Below are positions 60,432 through 64,000 of a stretch of DNA of 64,000 nt, one piece after another. A model generated the notes under the pieces. That model saw nothing but the letters and a program-made list of their open reading frames with translations. It ran no database searches and was not told where the DNA came from. This DNA is from Candidatus Poribacteria bacterium (lineage in GTDB: Bacteria; Poribacteria; WGA-4E; WGA-3G). A program made the translations under genes and the position numbers. Location: assembly GCA_958295945.1 (NCBI GenBank), contig OY282386.1:3094204-3158203 (forward strand), given 5' to 3'. Numbering within the stretch: position 1 is the stretch's first letter; the number at the start of each line of letters is the position of its first letter.

Positions 60432-61985
60432 TTACCCCTCTGTGCGGAGATGAATCAGTTTATTGACTGCGTGGATATATGCTTTCGCACTCGCTTCAAT
60501 GATGTCAGTGCTGGCACCATTACCAGTGATAATGTGTCCGTTATCCTGCACCTTTAAGGTCACCTCACCGATAGCATCTTCACCTTCCGTTACAGAACGG
60601 AGTTGGTAATCTATCAGGTTCAGTTTGATTTTGACAATCTGATTGATAGCCTTGAAAGCAGCGTCTACCGGACCATCGCCAGTTGAGGCATTTTCAACCA
60701 AACCTTCCTCAGTGTGAATACCAACAGTCGTTGTTGGAGATATTTTCGTCCCACTGACAACTTGAATGTAATCCAACTCATAGGTAGAGGGTATCGTCCG
60801 AATTTCATCACCCATGATCGCCTCAAGATCGGCATCATGAATTTCTTTCTTCTTATCCGCTACACGTAGGAATCTTTCGTAGACCTTTTCTAACTGCTCT
60901 TGATCCAGTTCATATCCGAGTTCGCTTAGGCGATGTCTCAGAGCGTTTCGTCCTGAACGCGGACTGAGAATGAGTTGACTCTCTTTCCATCCGATCTCTT
61001 TCGGATCAATGATTTCAAAAGTTACTCTTGACTTTATTATTCCATCTTGATGAATGCCAGAACTGTGGGCAAATGCGTTTTCACCAACGATTGCCTTATT
61101 CGGTTGGACAGGAATACCCATAGTCCGACTGACACGTCTGCTGATGGGGACAATCTCTTTTGCATTTATATCGGTATAATAGGATTTGAAGTAATCACGA
61201 CGGGTTCGGATTGCCATTACGACTTCTTCTAACGATGTATTTCCAGCGCGTTCACCGAGTCCATTGACAGTACACTCAACTTGCCGAGCACCTTGTTCAA
61301 TCGCAATTAGACTGTTTGCTACTGCCAACCCCAGATCGTTGTGGCAGTGCACACTGATTACAGCATCGTCAATATTTGAAACATTTTCTTTGATACCTGC
61401 GATGAGTCCACCGAATTCAGCCGGAACTGTCCACCCAACTGTTTCTGGTATATTAACAACTGTCGCACCTGCGGCGATAGTGGCTTCAACCACCTTATAC
61501 AGATAGTTCAATTCTGTGCGTCCTGCATCCATCGGAGAAAACTCAACTGTGGCATCAGCATGATCTACACATAAACTCTTTGCGTAAGCAACAGCGTCAA
61601 CAGCCATTTCCAATGTTCTCTCTGGTGTTGTGCGAGTGATACGCTCCATGTGGATATTAGATGTGCCGACAAAGGTATGAATACGTGCACGTGGGGCATC
61701 CTCAATTGCTTTCCATGCTGCCGTGATGTCCTTTTCAACCACACGCGAAAGCGCGCAGATTTCAGGTCCCTTAACCTCGTTCGCTATCTGTTCAACAGCA
61801 TCAAAGTCTCCCGGTGACGAAATTGGAAATCCAGCTTCTATGACATCAACATTTAATTTCGCAAGGTGCTTGGCAATCTCAAATTTTTCTTCAATGCCGA
61901 GTGCGGCTCCGGGAGTTTGCTCCGCATCTCGGAGTGTTGTATCAAATATTAGAACCTTTTCTTGGTTAGATTCAAAATCGTCCAC
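60432..61985 (-). CDS. leuA: 2-isopropylmalate synthase
   Basis: First enzyme of leucine synthesis: acetyl-CoA plus 2-oxoisovalerate. 517 aa from the GTG at 61985, chosen because GGAGGA lies seven bases upstream; an ATG at 62000 lacks a ribosome site. Catalytic domain marks: [28 protein letters not shown] (metal His pair) and NGLGERAGN. The C-terminal regulatory domain (from about 385) is complete. It is 72-87 bp behind the DAHP synthase gene, so probably cotranscribed. Confidence 0.94.
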
Positions 61986-62072
61986 GGTTGTGTCCTCCAT
62001 AAGAGTTTACTATTTATTGTAAGTACAAATTGTTTTACCTTACAACATAATATTTTATATCTGTTTCTTCAC

Positions 62073-63089
62073 TTATATTTCGCGACCAACAGCGATAGCA
62101 ATCGGTTTTAGTTCTTGCATTAATGTCTCAAATTGTTCAGGAAACAGTGACTGCGCTCCATCACCTGTCATTGAATGGTCTGGATCATGGTGAACTTCCA
62201 ATAATAGGCCATCGGCTCCTGAGGCAACGGATGCTTTTGTCATGTCACTCACAAGACTTCTAATCCCAGTACCATGACTTGGGTCAACGACGATGGGAAG
62301 ATGACTCAATTCATGAATGACAGGTACTGCATTAAGGTCAAGTGTGTTTCGTGTGTGGGTTTCAAAAGTTCGGATTCCCCGTTCACAGAGGATAACGTCT
62401 GGATTCCCTTCAGAAAGAATATATTCTGCAGCGAGTAACCATTCCTCAATTGTTGAAGCCATGCCACGTTTGAGTATTACAGGTTTTTGGAAACGTCCCA
62501 CTTCACGCAATAGATAGAAGTTTGTCATGTTCCGCGTGCCGAGTTGAAAGATGTCTGTATATTCCCCGACGAGATCAACTTCATGAGGTGTCATGACTTC
62601 TGTAACAATGCCTAAACCAGTTTCCTGTTTTGCTGTGACAAGCATCTTCAACGCATCAGTGCCAAAACCTTGGAAACTGTATGGACCAGTGCGAGGTTTA
62701 AATGCACCCCCTCTAATAAAACCGGCTCCTGCATTTTTCACGAGTTTTGCAATAGTTACAATCTGTTCGGTGCTCTCAACTGCACAAGGACCCGCCATGA
62801 CTGCTAACTTCCGTCCTCCAATCTTTGTCCCGTTTGAAGAGATAACAGTCGGTTCTTCCCGAAACTGACGGCTTGCTAATTTATATGGGGCAGTGATCGG
62901 CATCGTCCTATCTACGCCTGACATTGACCCTATCGGTATATCACCAAGCAATGTTTTATCTCCTATTACACCGATGACGGTGCGTTGTTCACCAGTTGAT
63001 ACCTGTGCTTTCAACCCAACACTTTCAATTCTCTTGACAATCGCGTCAATCTGATCAGGTGTTGCATCCGTTTTGGTAATAATTACCAT
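62073..63089 (-). CDS. aroF: 3-deoxy-7-phosphoheptulonate (DAHP) synthase, AroF/AroG type I-beta
   Basis: First enzyme of the shikimate pathway to Phe, Tyr and Trp. 338 aa from the ATG at 63089, which follows GGAGGG; an in-frame codon at 63125 is less likely. N-terminal ferredoxin-like regulatory domain (residues 1-70, VIITKTDATPDQID), then the barrel: MAGPCAVES (metal Cys), RGGAFKPRTGPYSFQG (substrate loop), TRNMTNFYLL and VVDPSHGTG. The regulatory domain implies feedback control by aromatic amino acids. A terminator and an aromatic-rich short ORF lie just upstream. Confidence 0.95.
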   Translation of the reverse strand: MVIITKTDATPDQIDAIVKRIESVGLKAQVSTGEQRTVIGVIGDKTLLGDIPIGSMSGVDRTMPITAPYKLASRQFREEPTVISSNGTKIGGRKLAVMAGPCAVESTEQIVTIAKLVKNAGAGFIRGGAFKPRTGPYSFQGFGTDALKMLVTAKQETGLGIVTEVMTPHEVDLVGEYTDIFQLGTRNMTNFYLLREVGRFQKPVILKRGMASTIEEWLLAAEYILSEGNPDVILCERGIRTFETHTRNTLDLNAVPVIHELSHLPIVVDPSHGTGIRSLVSDMTKASVASGADGLLLEVHHDPDHSMTGDGAQSLFPEQFETLMQELKPIAIAVGREI

Positions 63090-63141
63090 GGTTATCAATT
63101 CCCTCCGACAAAAACTCTGTTTCAAGTCAATGTTGATGATT

Positions 63142-63184
63142 ACTAAAAAAATAACCCAACATCGAACTCTTATCGACGTTGGGT
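63142..63184 (-). terminator. Intrinsic terminator in the DAHP synthase leader
   Basis: Read on the minus strand: ACCCAACGTCGA, loop, TCGATGTTGGGT, then TATTTTTTTA. One mismatch in a 12-bp stem. It lies 52 bp before the start codon and after the aromatic-rich ORF, so it is either the end of an upstream transcript or an attenuator. Confidence 0.85.
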
Positions 63185-63234
63185 GGTGATGAATGAAATC
63201 GGTTTAGAACATTTTCATAAGTGCATATAAACTA

Positions 63235-63384
63235 TCACCACTTACCGCCGCAGTACGTAAACGGGTACAACCCGAGCGTAAAGAGTGCCCAAAGACTAAA
63301 GTAAAAGCCTCGTAATATTATTAGTGTGGATTGACTGGCACTTGTCAGTACTGTAGCGATGGTAGTGTGTTCTAACTTTTGCAT
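63235..63384 (-). CDS. Aromatic-rich 49-aa ORF, candidate leader peptide of the DAHP synthase operon
   Basis: ATG at 63384, preceded by TTAGGT nine bases upstream. The last 24 residues, GFYFSLWALF then TLGLYPFTYCGGKW, contain nine aromatic residues (four Phe, three Tyr, two Trp) and the final codon is Trp. The stop is 50 nt before the terminator and the next gene makes the common aromatic precursor. This is the layout of an amino-acid attenuator. The alternative is a tiny membrane protein, since the stretch is also hydrophobic. A longer frame from GTG 63453 exists. Confidence 0.55.
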   Translation of the reverse strand: MQKLEHTTIATVLTSASQSTLIILRGFYFSLWALFTLGLYPFTYCGGKW

Positions 63385-63453
63385 TACAAAGATACCTAAT
63401 TGTTCTATTATTCGTAAACCTTTTCTTATATTTCTTATGTCATAGTGACCCAC

Positions 63454-63760
63454 AACCTAAAGGTTGGGGAAACCTGTGCTTCCTCGCGGACAGCCGATCT
63501 GAACTACGTCTTACGTCTGCTCCACTTTAGGCAGCTAAGCCTGCCTGTTTGATTTGTTTTTCGCTAACGTCGTGGGTTGGCGTTCTTTCCACCCATTTTA
63601 CAGCTGCCCTTCCTACCAGGCACGCCGTGCGACAAGTCCGTAGACTTCGGGAGGGGATCCTCCGCTCACGCATTCCAGTCTGCGTTTATTAGACGCATTG
63701 GCTTGATATGGACGCTATCCACCAACTTTATAGGGTTTGTAGCGATGGGGTTTATTTCCA
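63454..63760 (-). other. G+C-rich structured block, possibly an IS200/IS605-type right end
   Basis: The base composition rises sharply against the flanks, and several short stems can be drawn (AGGC/GCCT near 63530-63548, GGGAGGGGATCCTCC near 63649). On the minus strand the block ends GAGGAAGCACAGG then CCCAACC-TTTA-GGTTGTGGG, a hairpin like the right ends of tnpB-bearing elements. No tnpB frame is open: the best minus-strand readings are broken by stops. A relic or a non-coding RNA is possible. Confidence 0.35.
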
Positions 63761-63869
63761 CTTTCGCCGGACATTTCGTGCTGTCCATCACATCATTAGT
63801 TCTGTCTACATCCCACAAACTAAAGCATGGGGATTTGACGGAACAGTGTTAATAATACGTGTTTCCATG

Positions 63870-64000
63870 CAATACCTTCGCCATTTTTACGTGCTTCAAT
63901 CGAATGAGAATATAGTGTTGCTCTATAATTGATCTGTGATATTGTGCGATAGCATGAATAAAAATAACTTTAGGGTTTTCTTGAAGTGTTTTTAATTATC
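63870..64000 (+). repeat. TCAATACCTTCGCCA-type repeat, copy at window end
   Basis: CAATACCTTCGCCATTTTTA onwards matches 9627-9759 to the last base of the window (GAAGTGTTTTTAATTATC), with scattered differences. It may continue beyond the edge. Confidence 0.7.

Follow-up and report, generated by a model that had tools for sequence, protein, structure and literature searches.

Most descriptions of leader-peptide attenuation come from Proteobacteria, Actinobacteria and some Firmicutes (PMC2965389). One of the nearest counterparts of the locus reported here is the aroR-aroF system of C. glutamicum, where a leader with a Phe-Tyr-Phe motif is Phe-responsive (Neshat et al., 2014, as described in PMC11802643 and PMC4046766). 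The uORFC-13-1 motif upstream of aroF in Acholeplasma consists of a predicted uORF and a terminator (PMC8632094), and attenuation that senses Tyr-tRNA was hypothesised for E. coli aroF-tyrA (Camakaris, 1980, as cited in PMC8632094 and PMC2659441). Leader attenuators of aminoacyl-tRNA synthetase genes are described for trpS and leuS in Streptomyces (PMC1262725) and for hisS in bacilli (PMC2965389).

The window, i.e. the whole stretch of DNA analysed (64,000 nucleotides from a Candidatus Poribacteria bacterium), carries a leader open reading frame ahead of aroF and leuA that is very probably a ribosome-mediated transcription attenuator (probability about 0.9, as judged from sequence analysis). 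Like aroR-aroF, it has an aromatic-codon leader before a DAHP synthase gene, with predicted ribosome stalling and termination. By description, however, aroR has a single Phe-Tyr-Phe motif and answers Phe and not Tyr, whereas here the operon includes leuA and other genes have a similar switch. The logic is the same as that of E. coli trpL, pheL and pheM (pheST), and a trpL control gave the same folding profile. In contrast to these leaders, mainly Tyr and Phe appear to be sensed here, at the entry enzyme of the pathway; in addition, the last leader codons contain the antiterminator 5′ strand (region 2), and a protector hairpin from the N-terminal codons is not supported, while the E. coli trp leader has a protector (1:2) hairpin.

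The Acholeplasma motif, with at least one Phe codon, belongs to a different phylum and is a different motif, and the leader here has no Rfam match. The E. coli aroF-tyrA proposal is similar in that Tyr-tRNA would be sensed in the control of DAHP synthase, but in the citing papers it is only a hypothesis. As in the Streptomyces and bacilli synthetase leaders, paralogues of the present leader have a codon run that matches the downstream synthetase; unlike those, one recognisable switch core is common to loci of different specificity. The mechanism itself is known (trpL/pheL, C. glutamicum aroR-aroF). The Poribacterial attenuator family, its shared core and the dominance of Tyr appear to be new, and the open-licence papers searched, judged by title and abstract, describe no leader-peptide attenuation in Poribacteria.

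Leader, terminator and operon

The features of the locus are collected in Table 1. The first-pass annotation, made from the letters alone, had described a 49-codon minus-strand open reading frame with an aromatic-rich 3′ half, a 50-nt gap from stop to stem, a 12-bp terminator stem with a U-run, and then DAHP synthase and leuA; all of these are borne out. Phe, Tyr or Trp make up 9 of the last 24 leader residues (binomial P ~1e-4, with the amino acid frequencies of the window's long open reading frames as background and uncorrected for the choice of segment). The coding part is at 63384-63238 and the TGA stop at 63237-63235. The leader is short, runs in the same direction as aroF and has both its start and its stop upstream of that gene. 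The intrinsic terminator, with the tail sequence TATTTTTTTA, sits between the leader and aroF, the first structural gene. The aroF product matches PF00793, PF18152 and NF006421/TIGR01361, and the gene has a GGAGG Shine-Dalgarno sequence at ~63102-63106. A longer, GTG-started frame (72 aa, from 63453) begins inside the end of a mobile element and is unconserved, whereas the ATG is the conserved leader start. No terminator of this kind is found upstream of pheA and trpE in the window's genome. A search of the plasmid collection gave no match.

Table 1. Positions of the leader, its control elements and neighbouring features (window coordinates unless a locus is named)
Feature	Position	Strand	Basis
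Leader peptide ORF, 49 codons + TGA: MQKLEHTTIATVLTSASQSTLIILRGFYFSLWALFTLGLYPFTYCGGKW*	63235..63384	minus	ORF reading, homologous ORFs in relatives
Control-codon run, codons 26-44: GFYFSLWALFTLGLYPFTY (F4 Y3 W1, L4)	63253..63309	minus	
Region 2, antiterminator 5′ strand (last codons + stop): CGGCG-GTAA-GTGGTGAT	63234..63250	minus	Duplex energy, covariation
Region 3, antiterminator 3′ strand, overlaps terminator 5′ arm: ATCACCAC-CCAA-CGTCG	63174..63190	minus	
Intrinsic terminator stem-loop, 12 bp, loop 7	63154..63184	minus	Kept in orthologues examined
Terminator U-run	63144..63153	minus	
Weak Shine-Dalgarno-like sequence ahead of leader: TTAGGTATC	63391..63399	minus	Sequence
aroF, DAHP synthase (B. 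subtilis-type, ferredoxin-like domain), ATG start	62073..63089	minus	Pfam, NCBIfam
leuA, 2-isopropylmalate synthase, 72 nt after aroF	60432..62000	minus	TIGR00973; adjacency conserved
Internally deleted IS200/IS605-type (TnpB-derived) element, between promoter and leader ORF	63445..63850	minus	
Terminal inverted repeat of second small element (remainder beyond window)	63870..63883	minus	Sequence
Paralogous attenuators with Tyr, Leu or Ile runs before tyrS, leuS, ileS	L176-L194, L196-L207; G000 C1		

A conserved promoter, TTGACT-18-TATAAT, is intact ~0.95 kb upstream, compared with ~0.1 kb in a sister genome (L002); this distance and the weakness of the leader's Shine-Dalgarno-like sequence speak against the attenuator reading. 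The IS200/IS605-type element is not seen at this place in relatives. Elsewhere in the genome there are two more near-complete copies (0.4 kb) and several longer ones (L132, L133, L134-L142), one of which carries a 370-aa TnpB-like open reading frame. The element is non-autonomous. It has retained the tnpB 3′ end (IKQAGLAA*), together with a structured region that closes with a TTCCCCAACCTTTAGGTTGTGGGTCAC hairpin, and possibly a guide-RNA-like segment as well. The second element, just after the aroF promoter (L001, reverse, ~290-740), shows an inverted repeat, CAATACCTTCGCCA/TGGCGAAGGTATTG, and a 6-bp target duplication, CATGGA, at 63864-63869. No other terminator is predicted on this strand between promoter and leader, and the leader presumably still works in this genome despite the two insertions. 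In the window's genus tyrS lies directly upstream of the aroF leader (L229, G000 C1:3158688-3159923; L225-L231). In several genomes the tyrS search met a single stop within the alignment, which is probably the native stop codon of the gene, close to the C-terminus.

Conservation and the antiterminator helix

The named relatives, with DAHP synthases up to 96% identical, are Candidatus Poribacteria, which are mostly sponge symbionts. With the covariance model R1, a homologous leader and terminator are found in 70 of 73 genomes of the order and in 51/51 good genomes (completeness at least 90%, contamination at most 5%). Leader and terminator are present upstream of orthologous aroF in the genus and the family of the window as well as in three more families, and were not found upstream of the more distant DAHP synthases L044-L049. 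The leaders have ~33-80 codons. Their N-terminal halves vary in sequence and length, with in-frame insertions in several genomes, while the end is constant and consists of the aromatic-codon run, region 2 and the stop. REP-like GCTTGCAAGC...TTGCT inserts are found in frame inside leader open reading frames and also between terminator and aroF (L017-L023, L062). The open reading frame, the aromatic run and the terminator occur together across 11 genera and four families; the first-pass annotation had proposed to check the joint conservation of run and terminator. The terminator is not kept without the open reading frame, and in relatives the latter does not encode a longer membrane protein.

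A reading without any regulatory link, in which a simple terminator or an unrelated small membrane protein lies between tyrS and aroF, would fit the hydrophobic leaders and the presence of tyrS upstream in several genomes, this one included. But the N-terminal half varies, unlike the run, region 2 and the terminator, and neither the covariation of the antiterminator nor the cognate runs before tyrS, leuS and ileS (both below) would be expected, which makes this reading very improbable. T-boxes are frequent regulators of aromatic and aminoacyl-tRNA synthetase genes in other phyla, so that a T-box or other RNA-only sensor before aroF has a general argument in its favour. A search of Rfam with the leader of the window (also at a relaxed threshold) and of ten relatives, however, gave no match, T-box included, and such a sensor is extremely unlikely.

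The attenuator reading calls for an antiterminator. The first-pass annotation had noted a pairing of 63234-63241 with 63183-63190 that overlaps the terminator stem by only two bases, and had left the switching structure unsettled. The pairing is correct but incomplete, being only the outer half of a longer RNA helix, CGGCG-GUAA-GUGGUGAU (63250-63234) with AUCACCAC-CCAA-CGUCG (63190-63174), at -20.4 kcal/mol. The two-base overlap holds for the 8-bp pairing alone; a second covarying block, 63246-63250 (CGGCG) with 63174-63178 (CGTCG), lies inside the terminator stem and settles the switch. Of the 12 bases in the terminator 5′ arm, region 3 covers 11, and 7 of these are paired. By shared bases and covariation, antiterminator and terminator are mutually exclusive.

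The duplex is present in every intact copy (-14 to -30 kcal/mol). In families f2-f4 the corresponding helix reads GAUGGUGGGC with GCCCAUCAUC, and a MAFFT alignment, which is blind to pairing, sets both forms of region 2 in identical columns. Own partners give -22.0 compared with -19.3 for permuted partners, with 0/5000 permutations as good, in a control that ignores the relatedness of the sequences. For 36 distinct sequences from four families, in an alignment hand-anchored on both helix strands that leans towards the structure and with shuffles that likewise ignore relatedness, 82.8% of cells pair (75.3% shuffled, 29-55% slid), cells with both sides changed number 51 (19 in shuffles) and covariation scores 0.334, against 0.209 after shuffling and 0.05-0.17 after sliding. 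Counted by pair, those with any double change (9 against 7.8) are unexceptional in number. Double changes include G-C/A-U, C-G/U-A and U-A/C-G; they separate families, and some also vary within family f1. A protector hairpin between N-terminal ACC-ATC codons and region 2 is not supported, as 324/2000 permutations are as good.

Most leaders of the window's family end in Arg-Trp, which would suit a TnaC-type nascent-peptide arrest, with free Trp or release-factor limitation causing a stall at a conserved Arg-Trp-stop end. Yet the leaders compared share no fixed C-terminal arrest sequence with a stop: they finish in W*, WC*, WCSL* or R*, and in other families they continue past region 2. Pairing with region 3 accounts for the R-W codons, other families pair without them, and the paralogues track codon identity and not a fixed peptide end. 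Arrest of this type is highly unlikely and was rejected because the endings are variable and are explained by the pairing.

The predicted switch and the amino acids sensed

Folding of the leader with and without the open reading frame masked had also been proposed. If both terminator arms are available, equilibrium folding mostly yields the terminator even with ribosome masks, so the switch must be kinetic, as is established for trp attenuation. Because the equilibrium masks do not discriminate, truncated cotranscriptional folding was used instead: the RNA of 12 leaders was cut at the ribosome leading edge (assumed to be 13 nt) and before the terminator 3′ arm. In most of the 12, region 3 has an upstream partner as long as the A-site has not moved past approximately the last aromatic codons, and this pairing drops beyond them, with partial pairing regained near the stop in L011, L020, L024 and L066. 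In the window the boundary falls at the end of the control-codon run. The same procedure places the switch of E. coli trpL just after its Trp codons. In this model a stall in the run leaves region 2 free and a ribosome at the end of the open reading frame covers it, which supports the switch.

The proposed mechanism is as follows. RNA polymerase would start at the upstream sigma-70 promoter and a ribosome would translate the leader peptide. With charged Tyr- and Phe-tRNA (and less so Trp-tRNA) plentiful, the ribosome would reach the end of the open reading frame and cover region 2, the terminator would fold and transcription would stop before aroF. With these tRNAs scarce, the ribosome would stall within the aromatic run; region 2, left free, would capture region 3 ahead of synthesis of the terminator 3′ arm, so that the terminator could not fold and aroF-leuA would be transcribed. 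Conservation, covariation and codon placement all support what was at first only a candidate aromatic amino acid attenuator before DAHP synthase.

An equal response to Phe, Tyr and Trp together, as originally suggested, is too even. Sensing of aromatic amino acids is supported, but Tyr and then Phe probably dominate, with Trp minor. Most leaders have 3-6 Tyr codons, Phe is second to Tyr, and Trp has one occurrence in many leaders. Among 27 distinct leaders of the largest sister genus, the last four Tyr columns are invariant (27/27) with both TAT and TAC in use, and the aromatic run has a pN/pS of 0.22. In the window's own genus the run shows pS 0.08 and pN/pS 1.2, and with so little synonymous change coding selection is not demonstrable there alone.

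Leu alternates with Tyr (LYLYLYLY), and the attenuator might also sense leucine, coupling both end products of aroF-leuA; ilvGMEDA, with its mixed control codons, is the model for such co-sensing. Leu accounts for 26% of the control segment, with many synonymous codons in its columns, and in every tested part of the order leuA comes after DAHP synthase, also where another type of enzyme is present. On the other hand, the alternating Leu columns of the sister genus accept V, F and M whereas the Tyr columns are invariant, an LYLYLY leader is also found before tyrS (L176), a gene without leucine function, and family f3 leaders are Leu-poor despite the adjacent leuA. Leucine co-sensing by the aroF-leuA leader is thus possible but unproven, and we consider it unlikely.

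Probable related attenuators at other genes

Twenty R1 matches at other loci were fetched, with downstream genes named via NCBIfam or clear similarity. Of these, 17/20 precede synthetase genes for Tyr, Leu or Ile (tyrS 4, leuS 6, ileS 7); the remaining three lie before hisS (L189) and two other genes (L184, L195). The leader runs read YLYLY and FLYLFYWCY before tyrS, LRLRLLGLLRL and LLDLVLLRLR before leuS, and ISIIIII and IRIIIAIRR before ileS. Control segments, hand-taken from the frame read through region 2, contain 39% Ile (ileS), 40% Leu (leuS) and 20% Tyr (tyrS), and 34% F/Y/W in the aroF/aroG leaders. The cognate fraction is 0.35 vs 0.16 permuted (0/10000 label permutations), a test that covers loci with a readable leader and so leaves out loci such as L181, L183 and L193. 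The region 2 and region 3 pairing is present in the paralogues (-14 to -28 kcal/mol). This match of codon to gene across loci is strong, and the strongest, evidence for the predicted codon-specific stalling.

An Ile-codon leader or its remnant, with a terminator, is present in 11 of the 12 genomes sampled for ileS, among them the window's own genome (G000), where it is outside the window (~C1:2715.7-2715.9 kb). Among the leuS and tyrS genes sampled in the window's family, only tyrS in G075 has a comparable leader. At L189 (G040 C18:23293-23407) a similar terminator is found ahead of hisS, with no clear His-codon leader.

Five genomes without orthologous aroF (four of genus g8 of family f4 and one of g7) have the attenuator before an aroG-type DAHP synthase, with leuA directly after the aroG-type gene or after one gene. 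In G049 the order is attenuator, aroF, aroG, one further gene, leuA. The predicted regulator thus persisted while the enzyme that it controls differed. In G046, which also encodes a different type of DAHP synthase, the aroG leader (L161) has lost region 2; this leader is a natural mutant, expected to be locked in termination.

We favour, with some reserve, the view that one homologous core, made up of region 2, region 3 and the terminator, serves Poribacteria at several amino acid loci as a module whose codon run is exchanged per locus and which outlived replacement of the enzyme. The runs of this module would be Tyr/Phe before DAHP synthase, Tyr before tyrS, Leu before leuS and Ile before ileS. 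With a Tyr-dominated sensor on DAHP synthase, the long-standing question whether attenuation can respond to Tyr becomes directly testable, and the natural variants (intact, region 2 lost, leader separated from promoter) are ready-made mutants. If one core is indeed shared and its codon runs are exchangeable, Poribacteria would have an analogue of the T-box family built on leader peptides. The rapid divergence of leaders tends to obscure the evolution of such attenuators, and a shared core of this kind would make it visible.
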